NCBI GenBank assembly: GCA_028819575.1
Contig: JAPPLB010000156.1
Span: 1 to 64,000 of the forward strand
DNA from: Bryobacterales bacterium
Lineage (GTDB): Bacteria > Acidobacteriota > Terriglobia > Bryobacterales > UBA6623
Direction of reading: 5' to 3'
DNA: 64,000 bases
Part shown: piece after piece, positions 58-62,828 of the stretch
Position numbering within the stretch: position 1 is the first letter of the stretch
Layout of the letters: every line of letters begins with the position of its first letter
Position numbers and translations under genes: made by a program
The notes under the pieces: model-generated
Seen by the model: only the letters and a program-made list of their open reading frames with translations
Told to the model about the DNA's origin: nothing
The model's database searches: none

Positions 58-405
58 CCTGCATATCTCACCACGTGGCGAGGCGAAGTGGGTGAGAGGG
101 CCGTCAGGACAAGGCGCGAGCCGGGCAGAGGAAAAAGGCGCAAGCAACATGGCCTTTAAGGTTTTTCACGAATCACAGCCTTTACGGTTCACCGGCCGTC
201 AGACATTTCTTCTGGAGCGAACCAGGCCCCCGTCCATGGTTTTCACGAATCACGAGACACGAAACACGAATCACGGCCTTTCAGGCGCAAGTCTCGCAGA
301 GACAAGCCCGAATTCCGGGGTTTTCACGAAACACGAAACACGAATCACGGATTTTTTTCGAAACACGAATCACGAGACACGGCTTTTTATCAAGACACGA
401 GACAG
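58..405. repeat. dispersed composite repeat, copy 1 (arm, core, module B, heptamer tracts)
   Basis: The copy begins with the left arm CCTGCATATCTCACCAC directly after a TAG stop. It continues with the shared core (GTGAGAGGGCCGTCAGGAC), then a second module (GGTTCACCGGCCGTCAGACA, about 185-240). Long runs of heptamers CACGAAT, CACGAGA and CACGAAA follow at about 241-278 and 321-403. The right-hand arm seen in full-length copies (GTGGTGAGAAATGCAGG) is missing. The tract stops just before the Shine-Dalgarno AGGAGGT (404-410) of the next gene, so it lies in that gene's 5' leader. Confidence 0.9.
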
Positions 406-5655: not shown

Positions 5656-5860
5656 CCTGCCTTTCTCACCACGAGGCGATGTGAAGTGCGTGAGAGGGCC
5701 GCCAGGACGAGGCGCAAGCCGGGCGGAGGAAAAAGGCGCGAGCCGGGCGGAGGAAAAAGGCGCAGGCAACATGGCCTTTAAGGTTTTTTCACGAATCACG
5801 AGACACGAATCACGACCTTTTAATCGTGTGCTTCGGCCGTCGGGTGGTGAGAAATGCAGG
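5656..5860. repeat. dispersed composite repeat, copy 2 (both arms present)
   Basis: Left arm CCTGCCTTTCTCACCAC starts at 5656 and right arm GTGGTGAGAAATGCAGG ends at 5860, so the 205-bp copy is flanked by near-perfect inverted arms. The core has GTGAGAGGGCCGCCAGGACG, an internal tandem duplication of a GAGCCGGGCGGAGGAAAAAG-like unit, and a short heptamer tract (CACGAATCACGAGACACG). The usual right-hand core is replaced by that tract. Confidence 0.9.
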
Positions 5861-6176: not shown

Positions 6177-6931
6177 TCACCCGGCAGGCAGCTGGCCCCA
6201 GACGATCAGCAACGGTTGATCGATGTGACGCACGAGCGCTTTGAGAAAGTCGATCACCTCGGCTTGGCGGATCACACCGGGATCGAGCCGGAAGTAGAAG
6301 TGGCGCAGCGTCAGCCCGGCCGACATCGAGAGCTTGTCCCAGTTGAAGTTGAACTTCAGCTCCGGCGTCTTCCCGCGCGGTGCCCAACTGCGGCAGCGAT
6401 GCGGCTTCTGACTCAATCCGCTTTCGTCGATGAAGAGAAGCGTGCGGCCTTCGGTGCGGGCTTTTTGTTAACGCCGGGCCAGGTCTTGCGCTTCCAAGTG
6501 CGGATCGCTTCTTCGTTGCGCTCACGCGCTCGGCTGACCGGGCGTTGGGGGCTCCAGCCCAGCCCCCGCAGGACTTTCCAGACGTGACCTTCGTGGTAGT
6601 CAACCCCGAACTCGTCTCCGATCAGGCGAGCCACCCGCGGGCAACTCCACAGCGGCGTCGGGAAGCCGTGCGCCTCGGGACCTTCCAGTAACAGCGTTAC
6701 CAGCCGTTCCCGTTGCGCGGCGTTCAACAGCGGCTTGCGCCCGGCACGACGAAGCGCGGCCGCGCCTTGTCGCTGGTATTGCCGCCGCCACTCACTGACG
6801 GTTTGCCGGGACACCTTGAGCCGCCGGGCCGTTTCCGACTGATTCAGGCCTTGGTCGAGCAGCCGCATGGCCTCAAAACGGCGCTTCTCCAGCGCCAGAA
6901 AATCCCGCTTCACACCTTTGGGGTTGCCCAT
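6177..6931 (-). pseudogene. truncated IS630-family transposase (two frames, -1 shift)
   Basis: The first frame (6413-6931, 172 residues) carries an N-terminal helix-turn-helix (GLNQSETARRLKVSRQTVSE) and a winged-helix segment with GDEFGVDYHEGHVWKVLRGL, typical of IS630 transposases. The catalytic part lies in the -1 frame: TLLFIDESGL holds the first DDE aspartate, followed by PHRCRSWAPRG. The two meet at an AAAAAG run (plus-strand 6461-6467), a plausible -1 shift site. The second frame stops at 6177 after LLIVWGQLPAG, where intact family members have a D in WDxLPAH. The second Asp, the final Glu and about 60-70 residues are therefore lost. The element should be dead. It is a decayed remnant next to the prophage. 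Confidence 0.8.
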
Positions 6932-16275: not shown

Positions 16276-16451
16276 CCTGCGTTTCTCCCCATGTGGGGAC
16301 GCGAAGGGCGTGAGAGGGCCGTCAGGACGAGGCGCACGCCGCTTGTCTCGCTCAGGTGTACTTGAAAGTACATTGAGTACGGCAAGCAAGTGCAACGAAG
16401 TCATGGCGGTCTTATCGCGTGCTGCGGCCATCAAGTGGTGAGAAAGGCAGG
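16276..16451. repeat. dispersed repeat, copy 3 (full length, 176 bp)
   Basis: Left arm CCTGCGTTTCTCCCCAT starts at 16276 and right arm GTGGTGAGAAAGGCAGG ends at 16451. The core contains CGTGAGAGGGCCGTCAGGAC, then GCAAGCAAGTGCAACGAAGT and CATGGCGGTCTTATCGCGTG, which recur in other full-length copies. No heptamer tract. It ends 16 bases before the rpe start codon, so the right arm lies in the rpe leader. Confidence 0.92.
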
Positions 16452-18401: not shown

Positions 18402-18576
18402 CCTGCATTTTTTACCAAGTGACGAGGCGAAGTGCTCGAGAGGCCGTCAGGACGAGGCGTCATCCTCTTGGAACTCGCAGGTCTTCTTGACGGTACAACG
18501 AGCACGGTAATCAAGCTCAACGAAGTCATGGCGGTCTTGTCGCGTGATCCGCACGTCAGTGGGTGAGAAATGCAGG
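18402..18576. repeat. dispersed repeat, copy 4 (full length, 175 bp)
   Basis: Left arm CCTGCATTTTTTACCAA starts at 18402 and right arm GTGGGTGAGAAATGCAGG ends at 18576. The core shows the shared GAGAGGCCGTCAGGACGAGG and AAGTCATGGCGGTCTTGTCG segments. The copy ends 14 bases before the start of the receiver-domain gene. Confidence 0.9.
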
Positions 18577-21957: not shown

Positions 21958-22133
21958 CTTGCATGTCTCCCCGCATGGGGAGGCAAACTGCGTGAAAGGA
22001 CCCTCAGGACGAGACGCGGGCCTAAGGGTGTCCGCAAGTGTGCTTGACCCAATCTCGAGTAGGGTAACCAAGCGCAACGAAGCCATGGCGGTTTTATCTC
22101 CTGGTTCGACCGTCCGGTGTTGAGTGATGCAGG
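21958..22133. repeat. dispersed repeat, copy 5 (full length, 176 bp)
   Basis: The left arm is degenerate (CTTGCATGTCTCCCCGC at 21958) and the right arm is GTGTTGAGTGATGCAGG ending at 22133. The core keeps GTGAAAGGACCCTCAGGACG and AACGAAGCCATGGCGGTTTT. The last base directly abuts the reverse-strand stop codon (22134-22136) of the channel gene, so that gene's 3' end is set exactly at the repeat. Confidence 0.88.
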
Positions 22134-31247: not shown

Positions 31248-31314
31248 CCTGCATGTCTCACCACGAGCCTCTGACCCCCTGCCTTGCCACGGACAAGGTG
31301 GTGAGATATGCAGG
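31248..31314. repeat. dispersed repeat, copy 6 (reduced 67-bp hairpin form)
   Basis: AACCTGCATGTCTCACCAC (31246-31264) and GTGGTGAGATATGCAGGTT (ending at 31316) are 19-base inverted arms with one mismatch, separated by only about 33 bases. The 176-bp core of other copies is absent. It lies 52 bases after the PFOR stop. Confidence 0.9.
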
Positions 31315-33409: not shown

Positions 33410-33660
33410 CCTGCACGCTGCCCGTGAGGGGCAGTGCGTGAGAGGGCCGTCAGGACAAGGCGCTCGCCGCCTGGCGTGCACAGGTGTAGCGGACTTGTCG
33501 CTTCCTTCGGCCTTCGGGTCGCGGAACACGAGTCATGGCCTTTACTGTTAACCGGCCGTCAGACATTTCTTTCTGGAGCACACCAGAACCACGCCATTGG
33601 TTTTCACGAATCACGAATCACGAAACACGGCTTTTATGCTTTTTCACTAACCACGGCCTT
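33410..33660. repeat. dispersed composite repeat, copy 7 (degenerate)
   Basis: Starts with a degenerate arm (CCTGCACGCTGCCCGTG), then the core GCGTGAGAGGGCCGTCAGGA, then module B (AACCGGCCGTCAGACATTTC at about 33550) and heptamers CACGAATCACGAATCACGAA at about 33606-33630. The tail overlaps and supplies the stop codon of the minus-strand gene that ends at 33647. Confidence 0.88.
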
Positions 33661-39262: not shown

Positions 39263-39595
39263 CCTGCAAGCGCGGTCCAGAGAGTTCTACGCGCATATCT
39301 CCCCGTGTGCGGAGGCGATGTGCGTGAGAGGGCCGTCAGGATGGGGCGTGAGACTTCTTCGCTGGTAACACGGCCTTTAAGGTCTTTCACGAATCACAGG
39401 GTTTTTGGTAGTGAAGGGCTTCAGTCTTTTTCCCCGGCTCGACCTGCATAGCATGAGGAGAGAAGAGCTGTTTCTCATGTCTCGTAATGCCCGATCCGTG
39501 ACGCAAGAGAAACGAATATTCATCGGCTGTCAGGCGTTGAGTACCACTGGATCGCTTCCAGGGGATTTCACGAAACACGAAACACGGCTTTCCTG
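39263..39595. repeat. dispersed composite repeat, copy 8 (degenerate)
   Basis: A partial left arm (CCTGC at 39263; GCATATCTCCCCGTGTG at about 39292) precedes the core GTGCGTGAGAGGGCCGTCAG. Heptamer-like tracts (TTTCACGAATCACAGG; TTTCACGAAACACGAAACAC) and other repeat fragments follow. The region 39164-39900 has no supportable gene. Confidence 0.75.
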
Positions 39596-39857: not shown

Positions 39858-39906
39858 CCTGCGTTTCTCATCCCGTGCTTCGGCCGGCAGAGGGTGAAAA
39901 ATGCAG
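39858..39906. repeat. dispersed repeat, copy 9 (reduced 49-bp hairpin form)
   Basis: CCTGCGTTTCTCATCCC (from 39858) and GGGTGAAAAATGCAG (to 39906) are inverted arms with about 17 bases between them. It directly precedes and touches the start region of the SulP gene; an upstream in-frame ATG at 39901 lies inside the right arm. Confidence 0.85.
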
Positions 39907-39918
39907 AGTGAGACCGCT

Positions 39919-50643: not shown

Positions 50644-50677
50644 CCTGCCTTTCTCCCCACGTGGGGAGAATTGCAGG
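50644..50677. repeat. dispersed repeat, copy 10 (minimal 34-bp palindrome)
   Basis: CCTGCCTTTCTCCCCAC is joined directly to GTGGGGAGAATTGCAGG, so the element is two arms with no loop or core and only two mismatched positions. It sits 18 bases after the NuoL-like stop and 57 bases before the NuoM-like start, inside the operon. Confidence 0.92.
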
Positions 50678-52314: not shown

Positions 52315-52510
52315 CCTGCCTGTCTCATCCCGTGGGCAGGCAAGGCCCGTGCGGGTCACCAGACACGAATCACGAGACACGGCTTTTCCCTATCGAGCAC
52401 GGCAAGCCGGTGCAACCAAGTCAGTGCGGTCGTGTCGCCTGCTTCTGCCTTCGGATCAAGAATTACGAAACACGGGTTTTTTGGCGCGAATCACGGCCTT
52501 GACATCTTCT
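52315..52510. repeat. dispersed composite repeat, copy 11
   Basis: Starts with CCTGCCTGTCTCATCCCG, runs through CACCAGACACGAATCACGAG and the core piece GCAAGCCGGTGCAACCAAGT. It ends with heptamer-like sequence (ATTACGAAACACGGG, GCGAATCACGGCCTT). The right end interrupts an antitoxin gene. Confidence 0.85.
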
Positions 52511-52665: not shown

Positions 52666-52737
52666 TCTCGATCTCCTTGACAACCTTCCGCCACTCCGCT
52701 AGCTCAGCGCGTCTCAGGTCTTCCTTAAAGTGGGCTG
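52658..52737 (-). pseudogene. 3' remnant of a toxin gene (RelE/ParE or HigB type)
   Basis: The last 24 codons of a protein, ending in HFKEDLRRAELAEWRKVVKE IENA, are open from the edge of repeat copy 12 (52738) to a TGA (52658-52660). They overlap the antitoxin start in another frame, the tight order typical of HigB-HigA and RelE-type modules with the toxin first. The rest of the toxin is gone. Assignment rests mainly on the position before an antitoxin-like start. Confidence 0.45.
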
Positions 52738-52891
52738 CCTGTCTCATCCCGTGGGGAGGCGAGGATCGTGCGGGTCACCAGACACGAATCACGCAACACA
52801 ACCTTCCCCGTCCCTCCGGCGGCTCCAATAAGAGCAACCCCAAGCCCGACCGACAGGTTTTTCACGAATCACGAGACACGAAACACGGCCT
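52738..52891. repeat. dispersed composite repeat, copy 12
   Basis: Starts CCTGTCTCATCCCGTGGGGA and contains CGGGTCACCAGACACGAATC, close to the same part of copy 11, so copies 11 and 12 are sister copies flanking the toxin-antitoxin remnant. It ends in CACGAATCACGAGACACGAA and abuts the stop codon of the TonB receptor gene at 52892-52894. Confidence 0.88.
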
Positions 52892-56175: not shown

Positions 56176-56308
56176 CCTGCATTTCTCACCACGTGTCGAG
56201 GCGAAGTGCGTGAGAGGCCCGTCAGGACGAGGCGCGCGAGCTGCTTGGCGCGCAAAGCTGTAGGGGCCTTCGCCTCCTTCGGCCCTCAGGTCACGAATCA
56301 CGGCCTTG
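56176..56308. repeat. dispersed repeat, copy 13 (left part)
   Basis: Starts CCTGCATTTCTCACCACG and keeps CGAAGTGCGTGAGAGGCCCG TCAGGACG-type core. It ends with CCTTCGGCCCTCAGGTCACG AATCACGG; the right arm is missing. It lies upstream of the TonB receptor and 31 bases from the tRNA gene. Confidence 0.88.
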
Positions 56309-56339: not shown

Positions 56340-56414
56340 TGGCAGCGCTAACGGGATTCGAACCCGTATTTGAGCCTTGAGAGGGCCCTGTCCTAACCCT
56401 TAGACGATAGCGCC
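56340..56414 (-). tRNA. tRNA-Glu (anticodon CTC)
   Basis: On the minus strand, GGCGCTATCGTCTAAGGGTT starts the gene and it ends in an encoded CCA. The acceptor stem pairs GGCGCTA with TAGCGCT (G1-U72), the T arm contains GGGTTCGAATCCC, and the anticodon loop CTCTCAA gives CTC (Glu). 75 nucleotides including CCA. It stands alone, flanked by repeats. Confidence 0.95.
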
Positions 56415-56475: not shown

Positions 56476-56598
56476 TTGTGAGAAGCCCGTAAGGACGATG
56501 CGCAAGCCGCCCGCGCTGGCAACACGGCCTTTACGGTTTTTCACGAATCACGAGACACGAGACACGGCTTTTCCGAAACACGGCTTTTTCCTCGTGCT
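56476..56598. repeat. dispersed composite repeat, copy 14 (partial)
   Basis: Contains GTGAGAAGCCCGTAAGGACG, GGCAACACGGCCTTTACGGT and heptamers TTTTCACGAATCACGAGACA CGAGACACGG-like. The left arm is absent. It ends just before the NIPSNAP gene start, so it is in its leader. Confidence 0.85.
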
Positions 56599-57398: not shown

Positions 57399-58730
57399 CT
57401 ACACGATGCCGGGCAGTTTGCGGCGTGCGTTCGGAAAGCTGTCGAGTCCCGCTTGCATCACGTTGTTCGCCAGCGTGAGATACAGATCGCCCGTCGTGCC
57501 GGTGGTCTCGGTGTGGCGGCCCGTGACAAGCTGGTTCGCGTGGCCCGCGACGATGGCGATGAGGCCGTTGTTCTTGTGGGCATTGGCTTCGGCGTGCTCG
57601 TGGAGGTAGAGCAGGCAGGTGTTGTCGAGCAGGGTGCCGTCGCCTTCCGGAATCGATTTCAGACGGCCCAACAGGTACGCGAACTCCTGTACGTGCCAGC
57701 GGCAGATGTCGCGAAGCACGCGCTGGCCTTCCGGACCGTCCGCTTTGTGGTGCGTGTAGTCATGGTGCCGCAGCGTCGTATAGCCCAGCCAAGGCATCCG
57801 CGTCAGGCTCTGGCACTTCGTGAGCATGTAGGAAGCGACGCGTGTCTGTCCGCTGGCGAACGCATGCACGATCAGATCGGTTTGGAGCTTCGCGATGTGC
57901 GGCCAGTCTTTCATGTCGCCGCTGATCCCGGGCTCTTCGACTACGGAGTATTCGGGGGGCAAGCTGCCGATGGCGCGCTCCAGGTCGCGGATGGACGCCA
58001 TGTAGTCGTCGAGGCGTTCTTGATCTCGGCGCCCGAGGTCGGCCTTCAGACTCGTTGAGCTTTCGCGCACCGAGTCAAGCACGCTCTTCTTGCGATCGAC
58101 CCAAGCGGGATCTTTGATGCCGAAGATGCGGTTGAACAGATTCTGTGGAATCAACTCCGGCGGGAGTGCTCGGTCCTTGCCGGCCCAGCTCATGTTGCGT
58201 TGAATGCTGTCGCCGTGAGACTCCGGACATACCCCGACTTGCAACGACCGGAACCGCGACCGGCCTCCGATCTTGGCGGCGATGGCTTGATCGATCGAGG
58301 GTCCGCCCGCGCCGCGCCCGGTGAAGGGAACTCCCGTCATCAGTCCGCTCATCGAGCGGTGATGATCATTGCCCGGACCGGGCACCCGTGCGATGTCGTT
58401 GTCGAGTCCGCTGAGAATGTGAATGTCGTTGCGGAACGGAGCGAGCGGCGAGAGGCATGGCGTGATTCGGAAATCCGTGCCGGTTTCGGTCGGGATCCAG
58501 TAGCGCTCCGGTATGCCATTGCCGTTGAACCAGACCAGGAAGCGCGATTCCATCGGCGACTCGGTGATCCGGCCGGCCGCGTTCGCGGCGGCGTAAGCCG
58601 TCCCGGACGAATTGAACATCGCTTCGAGCGGAGGCAATCCAAAGCGGATCGTGGCGCCGCCAAGAGCCGATCCGCCAAGAAAAGTGCGCCGGGATAGTCG
58701 TCGCATCTTCCGTCCGCTCAACATTAACAT
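57399..58730 (-). CDS. DUF1552 protein with Tat leader
   Basis: This 443-residue protein starts with a Tat leader ([20 protein letters not shown]) and continues with a DUF1552 domain. Signatures are [52 protein letters not shown] and [20 protein letters not shown]. In Acidobacteria and Planctomycetes DUF1552 proteins usually sit beside DUF1592/DUF1588/cytochrome-c proteins; no such partner is seen here. Exported, possibly to the periplasm. The start could also be the in-frame ATG 8 codons later (58706). It runs convergently to the NIPSNAP gene. Confidence 0.85.
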
Positions 58731-62529: not shown

Positions 62530-62828
62530 TCGGCCCTGGGGTTACGAAAAACGAATCAAGGCCTTTTCGGTTCACCGGCCGTCAGGCATTTCTCCTGGAG
62601 CGAACCAAACCCCCGCCAATGGTTTTCACTAAACACGAATCACGGCTTTAACCTGCATTTCTCACCACGTGGCGAGGCAAAGTGCGTGAGAGGGCTGTCA
62701 GGACGAGGCGCGCGCCGCTTGGCGCGCGCAGGCGTACTTGAACAGTACGTTGAGCACGGCAAGCAAGCGTAACGAAGTCCTGGCGGCCATATGGCGTGCT
62801 TCGACCGTCGGGTGGTGAGAAATGCAGG
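62530..62828. repeat. dispersed composite repeat, copy 15 (reference full copy with module B)
   Basis: Module B (GGTTCACCGGCCGTCAGGCA at about 62570) and a heptamer run precede a complete 177-bp element. Its left arm is CCTGCATTTCTCACCAC (62652-62668) and right arm GTGGTGAGAAATGCAGG (62812-62828), exact reverse complements. Inside are CGTGAGAGGGCTGTCAGGAC, GCGCGCCGCTTGGCGCGCGC (a hairpin) and AAGCGTAACGAAGTCCTGGC. It ends 11 bases before the stop of the dehydrogenase gene. Confidence 0.95.

Follow-up and report, generated by a model that had tools for sequence, protein, structure and literature searches.

IS1380 is placed in the wider piggyBac group in the literature, and MITEs are usually viewed as short-lived deletion products with drifting interiors. 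Prokaryotic MITEs such as Correia, ERIC, Chunjie, Nezha and QMITE are short and gene-less, carry inverted ends, duplicate their target, lie in intergenic DNA, are predicted to form a stable hairpin transcript and occur as partial and full copies in their hundreds, ERIC for instance with 711 copies in Photorhabdus (PMC10969869). Neither IS1380 nor Acidobacteria are mentioned in this review of prokaryotic MITEs (PMC10969869). The GTAG/CGTC-tagged REPs with RAYT are likewise palindromic, dispersed and intergenic (PMC3733652).

Here, a window of 64,000 nucleotides from a contig (C180) of a draft Bryobacterales genome (5.37 Mb, 200 contigs, 98.7% complete) was analysed. It contains a repeat that shares all of the above features of prokaryotic MITEs and differs from the known ones by its IS1380 partner, by its 4-bp YTAR target and by an interior of which sequence, fixed length of 174-179 bp and paired shape are kept over a phylum. 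TTAA is among its targets, as for eukaryotic piggyBac elements and their MITEs; unlike these, the repeat is bacterial and its target is YTAR, not strictly TTAA. From sequence comparison we put the probability that the repeat is a MITE with an IS1380 partner at roughly 0.9. The literature searched, with most subscription journals and ISfinder outside the search, holds no description of an IS1380-linked MITE or of a phylum-conserved MITE core. We judge the phylum-wide, length-constrained and covarying core to be the new part, while the MITE kind itself is known.

Copies in the window and in the host genome

The initial annotation described a dispersed repeat family with 17-bp inverted arms and about 15 copies in the window. 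Every one of these positions was recovered by a covariance model; the weakest three matches (39290, 56479, 52734) are marginal fragments. Four full copies of ~177 bp, one mosaic and about ten reduced or partial copies were found with this model, to which the E values below refer:

62652..62828, + strand: full-length element, 177 bp, young, 97% identical to the genome consensus (E 2.4e-49), with 4-bp flanks TTAA / GTAG
62652..62668, + strand: left terminal inverted repeat CCTGCATTTCTCACCAC, 16/17 identical to the left end of the IS1380 element L038:1256-2979
62812..62828, - strand: right terminal inverted repeat, reverse complement CCTGCATTTCTCACCAC
16276..16451, + strand: full-length older copy, same site occupied in the sister species G002
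18402..18576, + strand: full-length older copy, same site occupied in G002
21958..22133, + strand: diverged copy of full length, missing from G002, with an untidy junction
5656..5860, + strand: mosaic copy with both arms present (E 4.9e-19)
58..226, + strand: partial copy, left half (E 1.3e-9)
56176..56303, + strand: partial copy, left half (E 1.3e-9)
33410..33530, + strand: partial copy (E 1.5e-8)
31248..31314, unstranded: reduced copy of two arms with a 33-bp centre
39858..39907, unstranded: reduced copy, two degenerate arms (E 1.5e-4)
50644..50677, unstranded: 34-bp palindrome in which the two arms join directly, among 12 short copies of 34-50 bp
52315..52476, + strand: degenerate partial copy (E 1.4e-5)
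39290..39470, + strand: degenerate fragment (E 5e-4)
56479..56535, + strand: core fragment, marginal (E 0.05)
52734..52797, + strand: arm-like fragment, marginal (E 0.08)

The copies at 16276, 18402, 21958 and 5656 are older and diverged, and in the centre of the mosaic a 24-bp tandem unit together with CACGAAT-type heptad repeats replaces the core.

The initial annotation held that a family confined to the window would speak against a mobile element; it proved instead to be genome-wide, genus-wide and, patchily, phylum-wide. The consensus has 177 bp (CCTGCATTTCTCACCAC ... GTGGTGAGAAATGCAGG) and no gene. A sample of 850,576 bp, which is 16% of the host genome, was used for counting copies. Its 110 loci comprise 127 pieces, of which 42 are near full-length; the pieces are 74-99% identical to the consensus (median 93%). 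Full copies occur at about 50 per Mb; extrapolated from the 16%, the genome would carry about 265 full copies and 690 loci, amounting to 1.5% of its DNA. Ends resembling the terminal inverted repeat with at most three mismatches number 193 in the 850 kb compared to six in one shuffled control, showing that the repeat family is not due to chance. The best 40 copies genome-wide are all near full-length and at least 93% identical to the window copy, and the best 150 covariance matches in the host genome are all full-length. By a simple in-house gene predictor, 40 of 43 full copies are intergenic in a sample that is 85% coding. They point along or against the neighbouring genes at random (13 sense and 11 antisense in co-directional gaps).

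Target sites and recent insertions

The flank consensus is YTAR on both sides of the element. Identical 4-bp flanks were found for 21 of 63 intact-ended copies, where 8.7 are expected (reached in 0 of 5000 permutations, maximum 18), while identical flanks of 1-3 or 5-10 bp occur in at most one copy per length. The asymmetric target TTAG/TTAG appears in direct form nine times and in inverted forms three times; hence YTAR is a genuine target duplication rather than part of a longer inverted repeat.

Filled and empty sites were compared with G002, a congeneric sister species with flanks 88-96% identical, and each species was found to carry insertions that the other lacks. The empty site CGTGGCTAAACGATCC corresponds to the filled site CGTGGCTAA[198 bp]CTAAACGATCC. 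At C122:22843-23040 the host genome (G000) is filled with flanks CTAA/CTAA and G002 keeps an intact CTAA; conversely, G002 is filled at C147:9146-9307 with CTAA/CTAA and the host genome keeps an intact CTAA. Three empty targets lie in the window:

58724..58727, unstranded: empty target TTAA; a full element sits exactly there in G002:C139 as TTAA[element]TTAC, directly before a start codon
59967..59970, unstranded: empty target GTAA; filled in G002 as CTAA[element]CTAA
57399..57402, unstranded: empty target CTAC; filled in G002:C139, with extra bases at the junction

The junctions at 57399 and 21958 are untidy in this comparison. The clean empty sites are, as read from the two assemblies, the product of precise insertion since the two species split.

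A probable IS1380-family partner

The host genome encodes two full IS1380-family elements (L037 and L038) of 1723-1724 bp that are 97.3% identical, with a transposase matching PF13701 (E 1e-147) and the NCBIfam IS1380 model (385 bits, cut-off 180). The left end of L038, CCTGCATTTCTCACCAG, is the better match and agrees with the repeat at 16/17 positions, the right end at 13/17. These elements are flanked by the direct repeats CTAA and CTAG, and one of the two has landed within a repeat copy. IS1380 elements from plasmids of Pseudomonas putida, Stutzerimonas and Bradyrhizobium, with transposases about 54-56% identical, end in CTAG|CCCGCATTTCTCACA ... TGTGAGAAATGCGGG|CTAG, and the CCCGCATTTCTCACA ends share 15-bp identity with the MITE ends in the Acidobacteriota genomes G333, G289 and G173. 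The repeat thus resembles IS1380 elements in its CTAG/YTAR duplication and in its ends, which agree at 16/17 positions here and at 15/15 when several Acidobacteriota repeats are set against Pseudomonas IS1380. Unlike IS1380 elements, it carries no transposase gene, which is found in the partner elements only, and its interior does not resemble that of the IS (local score 21, null mean 21.8); apart from the ends, it therefore did not arise from the resident IS by simple deletion. G002 contains many MITE copies, but only broken pieces of the close transposase were found in its assembly. A search for IS1380 genes gave none in G333 (277 kb covered) or G289 (340 kb covered); at 4-8% of each genome this says little, and the partner in these distant hosts is presumed from the end sequence only. 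In the finished relative genome G008:C1 (loci L165 and L187) about 28 IS1380 transposase matches were seen, most of them 52-54% identical to the partner transposase, and the window element is unmatched there by BLAST.

Two other partners were considered. One, suggested by the REP-like half of the initial MITE/REP-like reading, takes the copies as palindromes of the REP/BIME type that owe their spread to a RAYT (Y1 tyrosine) transposase, in line with their short palindromic form, high copy number and intergenic position. We consider this practically negligible, as Y1_Tnp (PF01797) gave no match in the host genome although the same search was positive in five control genomes, as REPs do not make 4-bp target duplications, and as the element is a bipartite 177-bp unit and not a GTAG-tagged REP of 20-40 bp. 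The tagged REPs (PMC3733652) are much shorter, and their GTAG-tag anatomy is missing here: the conserved element terminus is CC and the outer YTAR belongs to the target duplication. Hardly better is the case for a MITE that depends on an IS630/mariner-like IS, an origin proposed for Correia or RUP elements. TA does lie within the flanks and IS630 fragments occur in the genome, but the exact duplications are 4 bp and not 2 bp long, only remnants of IS630 were found, and IS1380 shares both the ends, at 16/17 positions, and the YTAR targets. The MITE half of the initial reading stands, and of the two kinds of partner that it suggested, the IS with matching ends was found. Its proposal that the element may be mobilised in trans agrees with the matching autonomous IS1380, the 4-bp YTAR duplications and the empty sites.

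From the ends, the target and the co-residence of both elements we infer such trans-mobilisation by the IS1380 transposase. An IS1380-family DDE transposase, provided by a full-length IS elsewhere in the genome, would recognise the 17-bp ends of the MITE, cut the element out and insert it at a 4-bp YTAR (TTAA, CTAG, CTAA or TTAG), duplicating these 4 bp. This cut-and-paste movement is suggested by the relation of IS1380 to piggyBac.

Distribution in the Acidobacteriota

With a covariance model that was built from 26 Bryobacterales copies and does not include the flanks, 27 of the 297 Acidobacteriota genomes gave matches. These genomes represent about 15 families, and their matches are mostly full-length (model 1-177, 174-179 bp), with E values down to 2.5e-27. 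The covariance model is far more sensitive than a single pattern scan of genome contigs, which returned Bryobacterales only. YTAR or a close variant of it borders nearly all phylum matches, and an exact 4-bp target-site duplication is present in 10 of 23 representatives of phylum matches and Bryobacterales relatives. In G289 all five sampled near-full copies are CTAG-flanked and 92-100% identical to the reference copy, and G333 shows TTAA and CTAG duplications, which makes these separate recent bursts. The terminal inverted repeats measure 17 bp in the genus and reach 22/22 in distant genomes. They differ between genomes (CCCGCATTTCTCACAG.., CCCGGATTATTCATGA.., CCTGCATGTCTCAACG..), yet the two arms of each copy agree. 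The interior motifs GAGGCGCGCG..., GGCGTACT..AGTACGTCGAG and GAGCGCAACG are recognisable across the phylum. Interior length varies out of frame between genomes within 174-179 bp; paired structure and not codons is conserved. Nothing convincing was found in plasmids, phages and viral contigs at blastn sensitivity; matches to Rhodobacter phages were rejected, being 33 bp long and at chance level (E 0.05).

Secondary structure and strand asymmetry

The copies fold almost end to end, and the window copy reaches a z-score of -6.5 as DNA and of -10.9 as RNA. In a phylum alignment of 24 sequences, collected with a structure-aware model that favours paired examples, both partners have changed in 45 of 61 pairs, and 93.6% of cells pair. 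With 260 double changes, the alignment reaches a covariation score of 0.543, compared to 0.057-0.106 for slid controls. The inner helices 75-81/109-116 and 85-92/99-106 (helices 5 and 6) covary too; as they lie outside the search model, their covariation was not produced by the search. Among the genus copies the substitutions preserve folding, and 91% fold better than with the same substitutions placed randomly.

The two strands differ, with a consensus folding energy of -98.7 for one and -53.4 for the other. G-U outnumber A-C mismatches 99:19 in the pairs of the better-strand fold, a ratio that is inflated because the pairs were chosen from that strand's own fold. For pairs common to the folds of both strands the ratio is 30:14 (p 0.02), with a non-significant sign test of 11:4, and for the end repeats, chosen without folding, it is 32:9 (sign test 11:2, p 0.02). 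In the genus copies, counting cells gives 143:79, counting pairs 32:17 (p 0.04) and counting distinct states a non-significant 47:41. A strand-specific mutation bias as source of the G-U excess was rejected, since unpaired positions show no bias. The asymmetry is suggestive of selection acting on one polarity in single-stranded form, with RNA as the simplest candidate, and an RNA role of the core is put forward tentatively. The initial annotation also allowed for a known rRNA-, tRNA- or phage-linked element. Rfam searches did not bear this out: only tRNA-Glu was found in the window, distant copies gave sub-threshold matches of the generic long-hairpin kind, and a known RNA family was rejected, as no copy reached a gathering threshold.

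Origin and role of the conserved interior

The element belongs, on the proposed reading, to an old foldback lineage of 174-179 bp that is patchy across the phylum Acidobacteriota and whose ends vary and, where compared, match known IS1380 ends. As the interior keeps its motifs, length and paired shape while the ends vary, it is probably needed for something. We think that it helps the element to persist, as a compact hairpin in read-through transcripts or as an aid to transposition. In its full form, the proposal is that of an old selfish lineage in which the interior of ~176 nt is under selection through a product that is single-stranded, has one polarity and most likely is RNA; this product would serve the element itself, while the ends swap or evolve to fit the IS1380 transposase of the host. 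This is a tentative reading, less likely than not. Such a product would serve transposition, nuclease protection or tolerable insertions.

That the element is primarily a structured RNA (or DNA) kept by the host, with a core acting as RNA and with transposition being secondary, appears somewhat less likely still. Core, length and pairing kept across about 15 families, the one-sided folding energy, the excess of G-U over A-C in pairs and end repeats and the unbiased unpaired positions would all fit such a role. However, the orientation relative to genes is random, copy number ranges from few to hundreds, insertion sites differ between sister species, no Rfam family applies, and with reduced relatedness the G-U excess of the genus copies becomes weak. 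Recent horizontal transfer of one element could also produce similarity across the phylum in place of constraint, and the patchy distribution in 27 of 297 genomes as well as the frequency of IS1380 transposases on plasmids are in its favour. It is nevertheless distinctly improbable, given the many and compensatory differences between families (alignment A3: mean column identity 72%, 260 double changes) and the plasmids and phages that carry no copy at blastn sensitivity.

What sets the element apart from the usual view of MITEs is that interior sequence, length and paired shape are kept over about 15 families, with independent bursts of near-identical copies. It offers a natural system for asking what a non-coding transposon interior does, why one strand folds better and how an element tracks changing transposases. 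The covariance model could serve to annotate hundreds of unexplained repeats per Acidobacteriota genome.

Copy classes and neighbouring repeats

The 65 arm pairs of the 850-kb sample comprise about 40 with the standard core, 16 mosaic ones with the same arms and a heptad-type centre (CACGAAT/CACGAGA...) and six bare 34-bp palindromes. Twelve short copies of 34-50 bp were found in all sequence examined, several of them flanked by YTAR on both sides. Bare palindromes of two fused arms are located at L097:2124-2157, L145:13419-13452, L139:1102-1135 and 50644-50677 of the window; some are perfect with matched mutations in both arms and some have YTAR flanks, and they could be minimal mobile units or deletion products. 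Matching substitutions in the two arms of one copy number 34, where 7.8 are expected (maximum 18 in 2000 permutations). They are partly due to subfamily descent, e.g., T3C in G001, and correction of one arm by the other is a possible further source. Longer composite elements bounded by repeat ends were rejected: the 850-kb sample has three candidates, with ends 1.3-4 kb apart, and their 4-bp flanks do not match.

Heptad-like arrays (CACGAAT/CACGAGA/CACGAAA, then CACGGCTTTT) adjoin or interrupt elements in the window:

166-419, 5790-5812, 33600-33630, 39560-39590, 52340-52370, 52860-52885 and 56535-56588: heptad-like arrays

A second repeat module, CACCGGCCGTCAGACATTTCTTCTGGAGCGAACCAGGCCCCC, recurs beside heptad arrays (~190-230, ~33550-33600 and ~62575-62625). 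Further features of the window are a tandem duplication of ~310 bp at 792-1410 with units about 83-84% identical, a piece of an IS630-type (DDE_3) transposase gene close to the mosaic copy (6204-6440, - strand) and a tRNA-Glu (CTC) gene (56340-56414, - strand) between a partial element and a heptad array. Another dispersed repeat of ~323 bp, L095:7167-7490, is common to several places in G002.
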